The translations under genes were made by a program, and so were the position numbers. A stretch of DNA of 64,000 bases from Paludibacteraceae bacterium (lineage in GTDB: Bacteria; Bacteroidota; Bacteroidia; Bacteroidales; Paludibacteraceae), in assembly GCA_017556705.1 (NCBI GenBank), contig JAFYMG010000016.1, positions 186,001-250,000 on the forward strand, written 5' to 3'. The notes under the pieces are model-generated. The model was not told the origin of the DNA, searched no databases, and saw nothing but the letters and a program-made list of their open reading frames with translations. Below are positions 38,983 through 63,575 of this stretch, piece after piece (the first letter of the stretch is position 1; each line of letters starts with the position of its first letter).

Positions 38983-39169
38983 GATATAATACACCTTTAC
39001 GCTGCAAAGTTAGTTACGCTCCATTACCCAGTACAAGGTTACACGGAGTTTTGAACCGCTGTACTCAAAAATCTCCATCCCACGGCTGACTCGCTGTGGG
39101 TAGTATTTTTGTCAAAAACCTTGTGCTGCTATTCCGCTACTCTGATAAAGCACCGTAAAGGTTATATCA
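38983..39169 (+). ncRNA. Structured leader RNA, copy 1
   Basis: Two nested long-range stems. The outer pairs the 38983-39005 strand (GATATAA, bulge, CCTTTACG) with 39150-39168 (CGTAAAGG, TTATATC). The inner pairs ACAAGGT (39033-39039) and TTTTG (39049-39053) with CAAAA and ACCTTGT (39113-39124), leaving the bulge TACACGGAG. An apical CCCAC/GTGGG hairpin is at 39079-39100. The same arrangement recurs at 47091-47279. It lies just upstream of a small gene whose first codons are also similar at the second site. Confidence 0.65.
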
Positions 39170-40241: not shown

Positions 40242-40592
40242 ATGAAGATTAAAAAGACTAAGGAACTCTTCTTGAGTTGTAACGTGGCTGGCTTTAGCCA
40301 CTATGAGGGATGTATTGTTTTCGATCAATTGAAGATTGGTGCGCGATTGCAATTGGTTCGTGAGGATGAAAATGCTTATGACCACGATGCTGTAGCTATT
40401 TTCTTTGGTGATTCGCATTTGGGTTATGTGCCAAGTAGCAAGAACGAGCAGTTGGCAACTATGCTCGATCTTGGTCATGGTGATTTGTTTGAGGCATATG
40501 TGCAGCGTCTTGATCCGACTGCCCATCCTGAGCAACAAGTGCATGTTGCTATCTTTATGAAGGCAAATGATAGTGTTATTAACGAGCGTTAA
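40242..40592 (+). CDS. HIRAN-domain protein
   Basis: A 116-residue stand-alone HIRAN domain: FLSCNVAGFSHYEGC, KIGARLQLVREDENAYDHDAVAIFF and SHLGYVPSSKNEQLATMLDLG match the DNA-end or 3'-end-binding HIRAN fold found in helicases and as a small solo protein in mobile elements. It may recognise damaged or stalled DNA. It heads a run of five small genes. Confidence 0.85.
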   Translation: MKIKKTKELFLSCNVAGFSHYEGCIVFDQLKIGARLQLVREDENAYDHDAVAIFFGDSHLGYVPSSKNEQLATMLDLGHGDLFEAYVQRLDPTAHPEQQVHVAIFMKANDSVINER

Positions 40593-45112: not shown

Positions 45113-45136
45113 CAGTCGAAATTGAAAAATAGCATC

Positions 45137-45204
45137 GCGGATTGGTGTAATTGGCAACATGTGGGTCTCATAATCCCAAGTTTCAGTTCGAATCTGAGTC
45201 CGCC
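45137..45204 (+). tRNA. tRNA with anticodon CAU (Met or lysidine-Ile)
   Basis: Acceptor GCGGATT pairs with AGTCCGC. There is a short D arm, an anticodon loop CTCATAA giving CAU, and a T arm TTCAG-TTCGAAT-CTGAG. The tRNA is short (about 68 nt), with a weak D stem and a T-T mismatch closing the anticodon stem, so it is a divergent, phage-type tRNA. Confidence 0.75.
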
Positions 45205-45216
45205 ACAAAATTTACT

Positions 45217-45288
45217 GGAGCGCTAGTTCAATGGATAGAACGATACACTACGGATGTATAGATCGAGGTTCGATTCCTCGGCGCTCTA
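45217..45288 (+). tRNA. tRNA-Arg (anticodon ACG)
   Basis: A canonical cloverleaf: acceptor GGAGCGC/GCGCTCT, D arm GTTC/GAAC, anticodon stem ATACA/TGTAT with loop CTACGGA (ACG), T arm CGAGG-TTCGATT-CCTCG, discriminator A. Confidence 0.93.
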
Positions 45289-45292
45289 CGAT

Positions 45293-45398
45293 TAGCATCT
45301 TGGAGGGTTTCAGCTCCCGACGGAGCACATATAAAAAACCGTGAACTCTATTGTGAAGTGCCAAGCAATATCCGATTGCTGATAAGGACAAGATGCTA
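45293..45398 (+). ncRNA. Structured RNA between tRNA-Arg and rtcB
   Basis: A 9-bp closing stem TAGCATCTT (45293-45301) / AAGATGCTA (45390-45398) encloses at least two hairpins, GCTCC-CGAC-GGAGC (45313-45326) and AGCAAT-ATCCG-ATTGCT (45364-45380). It begins 5 nt after the tRNA and ends 31 nt before the rtcB ATG, so it would be cotranscribed with both. Confidence 0.55.
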
Positions 45399-45429
45399 TT
45401 ATTGAAATTATGAACTTAATGCTTATATT

Positions 45430-46593
45430 ATGAAAGTCATTACTGGTAACCGAGTTCCCATCAAGATGTGGCTCGAAGACATTGAAGATTCTGCAATGGC
45501 TCAAGCTTGCGATTTGGCAATGCTGCCATTTGCTTTCCACCATGTAGCATTGATGCCTGATGCCCATACAGGCTTGGGTATGCCAATAGGTGGTGTGTTA
45601 GCTACCAAAGGTGTAGTCATTCCTAATGCTGTAGGTGTGGATATTGGCTGTGGCATGTGTGCCATTCAAACCAATATAGATATCAATGTGTTTGATCGTC
45701 GTGAACTAGTCAGCATAGCGAATGATATCCGCCGTGCCATTCCTTTTGGTTTTGACCACCATAAGCAGCCAATGCCTGAAGAACTTATGCCGCAGGGATT
45801 TGACATAGAATCTATGCCTGAGGTTAGTTCGCTTTACCTCTCCGCACGGCATCAGTTAGGCACTTTGGGTGGTGGCAATCACTTTATAGAATTGCAGAAG
45901 GATAAGGACAACCACCTTTGGATTATGATTCACTCGGGTAGTCGTCATTTTGGCAAGGAGATAGCCGACCGCTATGCTAATAAGGCAAAGCGCCTTTGCG
46001 AGATGTTCTATGCCGACACTATTCCGGGCTTGGAGTTCTTGCCAATTCAAGTGCAAGAAGCCAAGGACTATTGGAATGCGATGAACTATTGTGTGGCTTT
46101 TGCTTTTGCTAATCGCCAATTGATGATGAATCAGATTTGCGAAATTATCCAAAAGCGCGTACCTGATGCCATCTTTGAACCGATGATCAATATCGCCCAT
46201 AATTATGCGGCTTGGGAGCATCATTTTAATTCAGATGTTATCGTACATCGCAAAGGCGCTACTCGTGCTCGCAAGGGAGAGATAGGTATTATTCCTGGTT
46301 CTATGGGTACTTGCTCGTATATTGTGGAGGGATTGGGCAATCCCGATTCGTTTGATAGCTGCTCACATGGTGCAGGTCGTCAGATGGGGCGCAAAGCTGC
46401 TCGCTTTAACCTAGACCTCAAAGAGCAGCAGCGCATCATGGATAGCCAAAATATTGTGCATTTTATGAAGTATCAAGAGCAATTGGATGAAGCCCCTGGT
46501 GCTTATAAGAACATCAAAACGGTTATGAATAACCAAGCTGACCTTGTTCGACCACTTCACCAGTTATGGCCGATCATGGTTTTGAAGGGATAA
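45430..46593 (+). CDS. rtcB: RNA-splicing ligase RtcB
   Basis: A 387-residue RtcB that joins RNA 2',3'-cyclic phosphate (or 3'-phosphate) ends to 5'-OH ends with GTP and manganese. Hallmarks: GVDIGCGMCA with metal-binding Asp and Cys, GGGNHFIE, MIHSGSRHFG, NIAHNYAAWEHH, GSMGTCSYIVEG and the guanylylated-His segment SCSHGAGRQMGR. All expected metal ligands and the nucleophilic His are present. The gene follows two tRNAs and a structured RNA, and a WYL regulator faces it, suggesting RNA (perhaps tRNA) repair. Confidence 0.95.
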   Translation: MKVITGNRVPIKMWLEDIEDSAMAQACDLAMLPFAFHHVALMPDAHTGLGMPIGGVLATKGVVIPNAVGVDIGCGMCAIQTNIDINVFDRRELVSIANDIRRAIPFGFDHHKQPMPEELMPQGFDIESMPEVSSLYLSARHQLGTLGGGNHFIELQKDKDNHLWIMIHSGSRHFGKEIADRYANKAKRLCEMFYADTIPGLEFLPIQVQEAKDYWNAMNYCVAFAFANRQLMMNQICEIIQKRVPDAIFEPMINIAHNYAAWEHHFNSDVIVHRKGATRARKGEIGIIPGSMGTCSYIVEGLGNPDSFDSCSHGAGRQMGRKAARFNLDLKEQQRIMDSQNIVHFMKYQEQLDEAPGAYKNIKTVMNNQADLVRPLHQLWPIMVLKG

Positions 46594-46964: not shown

Positions 46965-47090
46965 GCACTTGATTGTTTTCATCCCTTGTATGTTGCCTAC
47001 CTCAAGAAGAAAATGCTTCGCTGCCGTTATGCCTATATTGATTGTTTGCTACCGTTACATCTGCTATTGTTCCCTGCCTTAGCGATTTGT

Positions 47091-47279
47091 TGATACATCC
47101 TTTCCGGTGCAAAGTTAGTTACGTTCTCCGTTAGCCTACAAGGTTACACGGAGTTTTGTCGTTACCTAAAAAATCTTCCTTTTTCTCCCTAACCGCCATC
47201 GAGAAAACGAGTATTGTTTTCCAAAAACCTTGTTGACACTCTGCCCGAACACTTATAAAGCACCGTAAAGGTTATATCA
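47091..47279 (+). ncRNA. Structured leader RNA, copy 2
   Basis: The same architecture as 38983-39169. The outer stem pairs 47091-47110 with 47260-47279 (17 of 20 positions). The inner stem pairs ACAAGGT (47138-47144) plus TTTTG (47154-47158) with CAAAA plus ACCTTGT (47222-47233), with the identical bulge TACACGGAG. The apical region differs completely from copy 1 while the stems are kept. Confidence 0.65.
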
Positions 47280-47329
47280 AACGCTAACGGCATTAAACGC
47301 AAATGTTAAACTACAAATCAATTACAATT

Positions 47330-47506
47330 ATGGCACAACTTAGTATTTCTTTCGGTCTTGAGTTCAGCAACCAAGTAATGAACAACCAAGTAAATGTAAA
47401 GGTTTCTCACCGCTTCAGCAATACCGCAAATGAAGAAGATTTGAATTGGGGCGACATTTACGAAGAGTATTTAGATTTTGAATACACGAGCCAATCATGG
47501 AAATAA
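47330..47506 (+). CDS. Leader-associated small protein (short form), unknown function
   Basis: A 58-residue protein (MAQLSISFGLEFSNQVMNNQ, then NVKVSHRFSNTANEE) similar over most of its length to the N-terminus of the 39221 protein. No domain recognised. The ATG was chosen by alignment with the paralogue. It is followed by anti-restriction genes, so it is likely an establishment-phase gene. Confidence 0.75.
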   Translation: MAQLSISFGLEFSNQVMNNQVNVKVSHRFSNTANEEDLNWGDIYEEYLDFEYTSQSWK

Positions 47507-47548: not shown

Positions 47549-47905
47549 ATGGCAACAAAGAAACAAACACAGAACCAAGCAACAGAGCAAACAACTGCCC
47601 AAGTATCAAGCAAAATGAGAGCGTACCGCGAACACCTCAAAGTCATAACTAAAGGGCTTGTAGAAATGGCAACGGCAGCAGGTCGCACCGAGTTTAAGCG
47701 TAACGATTTACTCCGTGAGTGCTACAATGTGGTAGGTCAAGAAATGGACACTTTCGAGGGATGGAAAGCCAAAGGCGCACAAGTCCGCAGAGGAGAGCAT
47801 GCCTATCTATTTTGGGGCGCACCCGTAACCACCGAGCAAGGTCACACCTATTACCCTGTAGAGTTCAAGTTTACACGCGAGCAAGTAATTATAAATAATA
47901 AGTAA
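47549..47905 (+). CDS. ArdC-like N-terminal domain protein
   Basis: A 118-residue protein whose core (FEGWKAKGAQVRRGEHAYLFWGAPV) resembles the ssDNA-binding N-terminal domain of ArdC-type anti-restriction proteins. The metalloprotease half of full ArdC is absent. A Gln/Thr-rich N-terminus precedes the domain. The neighbour is ArdA, supporting a role in protecting incoming element DNA. Confidence 0.7.
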   Translation: MATKKQTQNQATEQTTAQVSSKMRAYREHLKVITKGLVEMATAAGRTEFKRNDLLRECYNVVGQEMDTFEGWKAKGAQVRRGEHAYLFWGAPVTTEQGHTYYPVEFKFTREQVIINNK

Positions 47906-47955: not shown

Positions 47956-48519
47956 ATGGAAAAAAAACTCTATCGTGAGGAACTCACACAAATGGAAATC
48001 AATGCGCACCGCGCAAGTTTGAACGGAGAGCCAGCAGTTTATTGCGGCACATATGGAAAGTACAACAACGGCGATATTTCGGGCATGTGGGTAGATGTGG
48101 CAAGCTTTACCGATTACGAGGAATTTATGGAGTTTTGCGAGCGCGTGCATGCAGATGAGGTAGATGTGGAGCTCATGTTCCAAGATTACGAAGGCTTCCC
48201 ATATTCTTGGTATTGTGAGAGCGGCATGAGCGAAGAAACTTTTGACAGAATAAAAGAGTTTGCCGCCTTAGATAATGACAAGCGCGAGGCATACGAGGCG
48301 TATTTGGACAATTACGACAGCGAGGCGAGCGTGGAAGATTTCAACGATTGCTATCAAGGGCATTTTGATTGTCCCGAAGATTTCGCGGAGCAACTCTATT
48401 TTGAGCTTTACGAGATACCCGCACATCTTGAGAACTTCATAGATTGGCAAGCAGTATGGCGCAATTTGGACACGAGCGGAGATTATGCCGAATTTGATGG
48501 TCACATCTTCCGTACATAA
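47956..48519 (+). CDS. ardA: Anti-restriction protein ArdA
   Basis: A 187-residue, strongly acidic DNA-mimic protein that inhibits type I restriction-modification enzymes. The ArdA signature is clear: VYCGTYGKYNNGDISGMWVD, FCERVHADEVDVELMFQDYEGFP, DFNDCYQGHFDCPEDFAEQLYFE and a C-terminal DGHIFRT. It is placed behind the structured leader and the ArdC-like gene and is followed by two inverted-repeat terminators. Confidence 0.92.
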   Translation: MEKKLYREELTQMEINAHRASLNGEPAVYCGTYGKYNNGDISGMWVDVASFTDYEEFMEFCERVHADEVDVELMFQDYEGFPYSWYCESGMSEETFDRIKEFAALDNDKREAYEAYLDNYDSEASVEDFNDCYQGHFDCPEDFAEQLYFELYEIPAHLENFIDWQAVWRNLDTSGDYAEFDGHIFRT

Positions 48520-56110: not shown

Positions 56111-56602
56111 ATGTCAAACGTTAAAAATGTAGTTCTCATGGATAGACGCCATGTAATGTCAGTTAAAAGGTCAATCAAATATGCTATTTGTGATTTGCTC
56201 GCATATTCACAGATAGAACGTGATGAAGATGGCTTTAAGATTATGATGGATGCCGTTCGTGATATTCTATATGACTATGCCATTTCTGAAGGATTGGAAG
56301 ATCCTCAAGAATATGTTCAAAGGACTCTAGCAAGTGCAGGTGAACGCTTGATGGTGGATTGCTCCTTGTTTGAAATATTTAAACGATCCATTACCGAAGT
56401 AGAGTTTACTATGCGCACACGAAATTGCTTGCGTGCATTAGAAATAGAAACGGTTGAAGAACTTGTGCAGTATAAGAAAGAAGAACTACTGAAGATGCGT
56501 AACTTTGGAAAGGTGTCGCTGATTGAGGTAGAACAATGGCTTTCAAAGCAGGGTTTACATCTTGGAATGACAGATAAAGAAATTATCAACTTTGGAAAAT
56601 AG
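56111..56602 (+). CDS. Orphan RNA polymerase alpha-CTD protein
   Basis: A 163-residue protein. Residues 95-160 match the alpha-subunit C-terminal domain: EFTMRTRNCLRALEIETVEELVQYKKEELLKMRNFGKVSLIEVEQWLSKQGLHLGM, including the NFGKVSL helix that contacts UP-element DNA and activators. The alpha N-terminal domain is replaced by about 95 residues of unknown helical sequence, so it cannot assemble core polymerase. It sits directly before the late promoter, as a late regulator would. Confidence 0.88.
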   Translation: MSNVKNVVLMDRRHVMSVKRSIKYAICDLLAYSQIERDEDGFKIMMDAVRDILYDYAISEGLEDPQEYVQRTLASAGERLMVDCSLFEIFKRSITEVEFTMRTRNCLRALEIETVEELVQYKKEELLKMRNFGKVSLIEVEQWLSKQGLHLGMTDKEIINFGK

Positions 56603-62464: not shown

Positions 62465-62470
62465 GTGTTT

Positions 62471-62860
62471 ACCTGCGGTGCTTGGGTGTATACCTGCGGT
62501 GCTATCGCCTCCACGGCGGGTGTGGGTTTGAGTTTACCTCCGGTGGCTCCTGCGGACGTGCCTGCATTATTCCGCCCAAGAGTAGGGGACATTTACCTCC
62601 GGTGGGGCAGAGATATTTACCTGCGGTGCTATAGGTTGTTTACCTACGGTCTTCCGTCCTCGTGGGGCGGTGTTTACCTGCGGTGCTTTTGGGATGTTTA
62701 CCTCCGGTGGGGCAGAGATATTTATGCCTGACGGCATGGGGTGTATACCTCCGGTGGTTTCGCCTACACTCGGCGGGAGTAAGTTTGAGTATACCTCCGG
62801 TGGCTCCTGCGGACGTGCCTGCAATGTACCGCCCATTGATTGAGACATCTACTTGCGGTG
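62471..62860 (+). repeat. Array of TACCTSCGGTG motifs, local period about 23-24 bp
   Basis: The 10-mer ACCTSCGGTG (or one-base variants) occurs at 62471, 62492, 62536, 62595, 62619, 62642, 62676, 62700, 62747, 62793 and 62851. Adjacent units are 21-24 bp apart. Larger duplications are visible: a 25-bp block at 62595 and 62700, and a block of about 110 bp at 62491-62596 against 62746-62848 containing 32 identical bases in a row. Plus-strand frames are short. On the minus strand the units read A-P-Q-V-N or P-P-E-V-N. Confidence 0.85.
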
Positions 62861-62912
62861 CAAAATATATCATATAGAGCCCGATACCGCCCGCTCGCCA
62901 AGAGTGAGCGCA

Positions 62913-63575
62913 AGGCGCAAGGGCGCAAAGGTCACACCAAGACCGCAAAGGTACACGGAGCAAATGGAGACTGATAGGCGCGCGTGATGTGGTGGGACTA
63001 TTGAGGTGGGCGCAATGTATGGAGACTGCAAGCGCAAAAGAGTAGGCAAAGACTTTTCCGCTTTTGTTCATACGAAGACTGCAAAGGCTTTCGGGAACTA
63101 TTAAGACTGCATAGGGTTGTGTGATATGGTGGAGACTTTTTAGGTTGGCGAGATTTATGGAGACTGCAAAGGTGGCAAAAGATAGGCAGAGACTCTCTCG
63201 CTTTGGATTGCATAGGGACTGCATAGGTGCGCAAACCATATAGAGACTCTATGAGGTTGCGCGTGATGTGTGGAGACTTTTAGAGGTTGCAGAGCAAACG
63301 AAGACTGAAAAGGTGCGCGAAGCATACCAAGACCACAAAGGGCGCAAAGAACATACAAAGACTATTTCGCCTTTTGGGCATAGTGGGACTGCATAGGCAC
63401 GCGGAGCAAATAAAGACTTTTCAAGGTTCGCGCCCATGTGCAAGACTGCAAAAGGTTTGAGGAGTAGGGCGAGACTATAGAGGGCAAAAGATATAGAAAG
63501 ACTTTTGAGGCTCTCGGTCAATAGATGGACTGAAAGGGCAAAAGTGACACAAATAGACTGCGTGCATATTCCGCT
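62913..63575 (+). repeat. 23-copy degenerate array, 28-nt period, anchored on RRGACT
   Basis: GACT (GACC in two units) begins at 62941, 62969, 62996, 63024, 63051, 63077, 63105, 63134, 63162, 63191, 63217, 63245, 63275, 63303, 63331, 63360, 63387, 63415, 63444, 63473, 63500, 63528 and 63556. Spacings run from 26 to 30 with a mean near 28. The unit consensus starts GACTGCAAAGGTGCGC and ends ATRGA, with much variation in the middle. A decayed earlier unit lies at 62913. Plus-strand frames are full of stops. Hairpins follow at 63636-63658 and 63669-63697. Confidence 0.9.

Follow-up and report, generated by a model that had tools for sequence, protein, structure and literature searches.

Template-strand hairpins with Bacteroidota promoter boxes as probable single-stranded DNA promoters in a Paludibacteraceae mobile element

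Single-strand promoters have so far been demonstrated for enterobacterial plasmids. In plasmid F, Frpo1 and Frpo2 lie about 5 kb apart before the leading genes and are active only on single-stranded DNA (PMC9849209), and the ssi sequences of ColIb-P9 are described, in Nasim 2004 as relayed by PMC8708921, as secondary-structure promoters for leading genes such as ardA on entry. In the Bacteroidota, a hairpin tied to promoter recognition is known from Bacteroidales-1 (6S RNA, RF01693). Here we describe two hairpins in a 64,000-nucleotide stretch of a Paludibacteraceae genome (the window; contig JAFYMG010000016.1, positions 186,001 to 250,000) together with their relatives. From the strand, pairing, boxes, spacing, position, orientation and gene content, all determined computationally, we consider each to be a single-stranded DNA promoter of the Frpo/ssi kind with Bacteroidota sigma boxes, a reading to which we give a probability of about 0.82.

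Like Frpo, these are long imperfect hairpins on the template strand of leading genes, and they precede ssb and anti-restriction genes. Frpo has a paired -35 and a mismatched -10 in its 3' arm; here a -33 element is paired and the TA of the -7 box lies in a bubble. In the plasmid F hairpin that stands before an antirestriction gene (L270), used as a control, the template strand carries TTGCAT..TAAGAT in its 3' arm with a mismatch exactly at -10, the minus strand folds better and holds most of the G-containing mismatches, and the leading genes are oriented toward traM and oriT. The Bacteroidota hairpins differ in having TTG and TAnnTTTG with a 21-22 nt spacer, not sigma-70 boxes, and in their apex; the likeness to Frpo is one of geometry alone, with no evident sequence relationship, and none is claimed. 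The ssi promoters, which also have enterobacterial sigma-70 boxes, are likened by description, and Bacteroidales-1 is a host RNA, the window-type hairpins having no match to RF01693. The principle is known from Frpo; for Bacteroidota promoters of this kind no earlier report was found in the full text of open-licence PubMed Central papers, and the phylum is absent from the main text of a 2024 survey of Frpo promoters.

The coordinates of both hairpins and of the genes that follow them are given in Table 1. An earlier note on this DNA had described the two as leader RNAs with the same nested helices, divergent apical loops and paralogous MxQLS genes about 50 nt downstream. The helices were found in both copies, the apices differ, and the MxQLS genes start 50-52 nt past the leaders, with the homology of the two copies extending into them (NVKVxHRFSxTAN). 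In copy 2 the outer helix pairs about 47090-47110 with 47260-47280, and the inner helix 47138-47145 with 47226-47233. A 22-nt block, TACAAGGTTACACGGAGTTTTG, is identical in the two copies and, with as many as three mismatches allowed, has no third match in the genome; GCAAAGTTAGTTACG and AAGCACCGTAAAGGTTATATCA are also common to both, and in each copy the TTT of the -7 box stands opposite a TTT of the other arm. Under the promoter reading, the apical hairpin of copy 1 lies upstream of the -33 element.

Table 1. Features of the two hairpins and of the genes downstream of them (window positions).
Feature	Positions	Strand	Remarks
Hairpin copy 1	38983..39169	-	Proposed to act as single-stranded DNA, minus (template) strand
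Outer helix left arm, copy 1	38983..39005		Pairs with 39150-39168; 3' arm on the minus strand; proposed non-template strand downstream of the -7 box
-7 box TAACTTTG, copy 1	39005..39012	-	Plus strand shows CAAAGTTA
Inner helix left arm, copy 1	39030..39040		Pairs with 39117-39127
-33 TTG in CCTTG, copy 1	39034..39036	-	Paired in inner helix; 21-nt spacer to -7 box
Apical hairpin AAAAATCTCC...GGTAGTATTTTT, copy 1	39067..39110		Two bulges of one base each, a T on the plus strand and an A on the minus strand
Inner helix right arm, copy 1	39117..39127		Pairs with 39030-39040
Outer helix right arm (template arm), copy 1	39150..39168		Predicted transcription start near 39155
MSQLS gene, 167 aa	39221..39724	+	First gene after copy 1; no Pfam or NCBIfam match
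HIRAN-domain gene	40242..40592	+	PF08797, E 3.6e-15; further downstream of copy 1
Hairpin copy 2	47090..47280	-	Bounds in the earlier note 47091-47279
-7 box TAACTTTG, copy 2	47110..47117	-	Read from sequence
-33 TTG, copy 2	47139..47141	-	21-nt spacer; predicted start near 47265
MAQLS gene	47330..47506	+	Paralogue of the 39221 gene
Small ArdC-N-like gene	47549..47905	+	Label by inspection; no Pfam match of its own
ArdA anti-restriction gene	47956..48519	+	PF07275, E 1.8e-26

Against dinucleotide shuffles, copies 1 and 2 folded as RNA with z scores of -6.1 and -2.9, and the minus-strand DNA gave z scores of -3.4 and -2.1 against shuffles. The DNA fold of copy 2 is only modest, which counts against a single-stranded promoter. 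Between the outer helices of the two copies there is hardly any compensation (one repaired pair and one new mismatch). Since two copies alone do not decide which strand folds, relatives were required.

When 358 genomes of the family were searched with the DNA sequence, about 30 genomes of the same genus yielded clear relatives, and short weak matches occurred elsewhere. The alignment of the genus copies keeps GCAAAGTTAG, CAAGGT..ACCTTG and GCACCGTAAAGG, and much of the remainder drifts; the TACACGGAG bulge, which had been pointed out as identical in the two window copies, is not kept among the relatives. An apical ATCTCCA...GTAGTAT is present in most genus copies and missing from copy 2 and some others. 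Used as a gapped pattern, the apex had at least 119 matches among genome contigs and 60 among viral contigs, a part of which arose by chance. The genuine matches were from Bacteroidota, most being recorded as Bacteroidales, Flavobacteriales, Sphingobacteriales or Cytophagales, and two loci from other families (L010 and L030) retain the same hairpin plan. Twelve of 392 genomes drawn from the phylum, the window's own included, had an exact apex match, and all 12 belong to the class Bacteroidia; the reversed pattern had no match in the same draw. Comparing the window leader with phages and plasmids by BLAST gave no match. Next to one hairpin match, at a distance of less than 300 nt, lies a Bacteroidales-1 (6S) RNA (L121, 5501-5679), probably by coincidence.

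The relatives came from the genus genomes and from the gapped apical pattern, and conservation of the apex is circular in the loci fetched with it. A filter on stem and box removed pattern matches that had arisen by chance in coding DNA (L207, L214 and L279 among them), after which some loci lacking the box were put back by hand; this filter is circular for the exact letters of the box, and counts made before filtering and loci fetched later are the cleaner tests. For the strand tests, 82 sequences, reduced to at most 80% alike, were used. RNAalifold recovered only the apical hairpin from their alignment because the sequences are too divergent, and pairing was therefore measured in each sequence and at anchored columns. 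In the apical hairpin and its relatives, the single-base bulges are two pairs apart with the A on the minus strand, an arrangement reminiscent of the sites that proteins recognise in folded single-stranded DNA; in copy 2 this double-bulged apex is only partly retained.

The left and right arms of each sequence were aligned with all mismatches scored alike, and the mean stem score was 57, compared to 33 for shuffled arms. With the -7 box excluded, G-containing stem mismatches, which a fold tolerates better than others, were commoner on the minus strand in 63 of the 66 sequences that could be decided and rarer in three (p 1e-15), and minus-strand G-T (plus-strand A-C) numbered 141 against 63 plus-strand G-U (p 5e-8). 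The minus strand gave the better fold in 75 of 82 sequences (p 4e-14). In the anchored inner helix, the flanking pairs were Watson-Crick well above independence and of several pair types; at position 5 there were 36 Watson-Crick pairs against 15.8 expected, with 24 C-A and a single G-T. Homologues with compensatory changes do exist, with the covariation coming from relatives elsewhere and not from the window pair. The asymmetry of mismatches and of energy, along with pairing at the anchored columns, shows that the strand selected to fold is the minus strand, the template for the downstream genes. Among 13 loci that were fetched after the hypothesis had been fixed, with the window's own (L276) set aside, the minus strand folded better in 12.

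The conserved unpaired GCAAAGnTA of the hairpin is the reverse complement of TAnCTTTGC, which matches the Bacteroidota -7 promoter box TAnnTTTG (PMC7366714; PMC9723704), an element that occupies -12 to -5 (PMC9723704). In about 71 of the 82 loci the minus strand carried TAnnTTTG at a distance of 61-120 nt before the apex, and on the plus strand it was absent from -210 to -1 relative to the apex (that is, from the 240 nt before it, the outermost bins excepted). Prior to any filtering, CAAAnnTA was found in 106 of 162 raw pattern matches, as against 2-10 for control patterns. The minus-strand box was also present in 11 of the 13 later loci, with no plus-strand box in any; the two exceptions are a likely chance coding match (L279) and a one-base longer variant (L280). 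The spacing from TTG to box peaks at 21-22 nt among the relatives and is 21 in both window copies. Mean pairing probability was 0.85 near -33 and 0.8-0.9 just downstream of the -7 box, with a minimum of 0.36 at the A within that box. Some copies have a weak -33 element, which counts against the promoter reading. Placing TAnnTTTG at -12 to -5 predicts transcription starts 65-66 nt before the start codons in the window. These sequence features are best explained if the 3' arm of the hairpin, on the minus strand, carries a putative Bacteroidota sigma-A promoter directed at the downstream gene.

This evidence bears on what the earlier note had proposed, a structured 5' leader RNA made from the plus strand that regulates the downstream gene. 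Both copies do fold as RNA above shuffles and their pairing is conserved among relatives, yet the mismatches and energies favor the opposite strand, the conserved unpaired block is a -7 box in reverse complement, no plus-strand -7 box was found close upstream of the hairpin, and comparison with described RNA families gave no Rfam covariance-model match at E values up to 5. We regard a leader RNA as very improbable. The same boxes are intact in double-stranded DNA, where they read leftward, and could in principle form an ordinary minus-strand promoter for a small or antisense RNA. However, copy 1 has a plus-strand gene on its left in the window, and a leftward promoter would leave unexplained the conserved long pairing, the bubble at -7 and the link to downstream early genes, making it a most unlikely account of these hairpins.

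The hairpins were found upstream of establishment or anti-defence genes. The HIRAN gene reported after copy 1 and the anti-restriction gene reported after copy 2 were both borne out by Pfam matches (Table 1). The 110 genes that follow hairpins include DUF6943 (11), PcfK (7), SSB (5), ArdcN (3), RadC (3), DnaJ (2) and ArdA (1), and ssb, ardA and pcfK are typical entry genes; two of the later loci also stand before SSB-like genes. In four loci (L085, L107, L156 and L197) tandem hairpins lie about 365-390 bp apart, the first preceding a small gene (about 54 aa) and the second a larger, by inspection DUF6943-like, gene.

Another reading is a single-strand origin, at which RNA polymerase would make a short primer on the hairpin for second-strand synthesis and no mRNA. 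Such an origin would need the same strand and the same polymerase-dependent start, conjugative elements do move as single strands, and Frpo reportedly has both roles (Masai and Arai 1997). Against priming as the sole role, several elements have two or three hairpins, each ahead of its own gene or genes, and the start codon usually lies about 40-210 nt from the apical hairpin (median 98). We think it improbable that these are origins only; the primer and promoter roles are not mutually exclusive.

To relate the hairpins to transfer, we compared contigs on which a PF03432 relaxase lies no more than 45 kb from a hairpin. In all 22 conjugative elements, which are partly related and so not fully independent, the nearest hairpin was on the same strand as the relaxase, and in 19 of them it was on the 5' side of the relaxase. 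The distance between the two was mostly about 14-23 kb, with tra genes in between in the annotated cases, and the hairpins do not adjoin oriT. Opposite strands were seen in two of 27 pairs, both of them involving further hairpins of an element. Plasmid pMMCAT was considered as a counterexample and set aside, its opposite-strand hairpin sitting in an apparently nested, integrase-bearing element. Since the relaxase lies in the lagging region (PMC11541004) and the hairpin on the relaxase strand, we infer that the minus strand of the hairpin is the one transferred, by this literature rule on relaxase position and not from a mapped Bacteroidota nic site.

The element that holds the window's hairpins starts at about 34.9 kb (34989), continues beyond the end of the window and reaches an integrase (L065, 8455-9885). 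It contains a DUF5906 primase, both hairpins, ArdA, UmuDC-like genes (labelled by inspection), and genes for a head-maturation protease, a tape-measure protein and, by inspection, a capsid-like protein, and it looks phage-like. No PF03432 relaxase was found in its genome, neither that genome nor ten related viral records had a Terminase_6N (PF03237) match over the cut-off, and a search of the phage-like elements for a Mu portal, with a query that had no working control, was negative. Other genomes of the genus have elements laid out in the same way, with one to three hairpins, and portions of this arrangement turn up in viral contigs. The element also encodes a protein with an RNA polymerase alpha C-terminal domain (56111-56602; PF03118, E 4.7e-18); two tRNA genes and an RtcB RNA ligase gene lie between the hairpin copies (45136-46593), and a repetitive stretch at 62465-63240 encodes YLRWGRDIYLR-like repeats.

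A phage-like element in a genome that lacks a PF03432 relaxase counts against a single-stranded DNA promoter. For the single-stranded stage of this element, mobilisation in trans, extrusion from double-stranded DNA and inheritance from a conjugative ancestor are candidate explanations. As an alternative to transfer altogether, supercoiled double-stranded DNA might extrude an N4-like hairpin promoter that is used in donors, in prophages or while the DNA replicates, and the presence of hairpins in phage-like elements with no detected PF03432 relaxase agrees with this. Long imperfect arms, however, extrude poorly from double-stranded DNA, and extrusion leaves unexplained why the nearest hairpin and the relaxase share a strand in all 22 conjugative elements; we see only a slim chance that it accounts for the hairpins. 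A broader proposal, which we hold as tentative and on the whole unlikely, is that single-strand promoters found across the Bacteroidia also work in tailed-phage-like elements with no detected relaxase, which would either pass between cells as single strands through borrowed conjugation or fire their hairpin promoters from double-stranded DNA, and that the double-bulged apex docks a dedicated protein.

For a single-stranded DNA promoter of the Frpo/ssi kind, the proposed course of events would be as follows. Once single-stranded, chiefly as the strand passed on in conjugation, the minus (template) strand would form the long imperfect hairpin, whose 3' arm would serve as non-template strand, with the -33 TTG paired and TAnnTTTG about 21 nt further on in a bubble, and whose 5' arm would be the template that continues into the gene. 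Host RNA polymerase would begin at the base of the hairpin and read the downstream genes ahead of second-strand synthesis, switching on anti-restriction and other early genes as the mobile element enters a new cell. Because the boxes face away from the genes in double-stranded DNA, expression would be transient. Polymerase binding, transcription and timing are inferred here, and on these terms the earlier suggestion of early expression on entry gains support, with folded DNA and not RNA as the probable agent.

If Bacteroidota elements use their own sigma boxes in this manner, the principle would be far older than thought, or would have more than one origin. It would also explain, in a form that can be tested, how gut Bacteroides elements get ahead of restriction when they enter a cell, would place many small genes of unassigned role (DUF6943, MxQLS and others) in the establishment phase, and would provide a sequence handle for locating entry genes across a major gut phylum.
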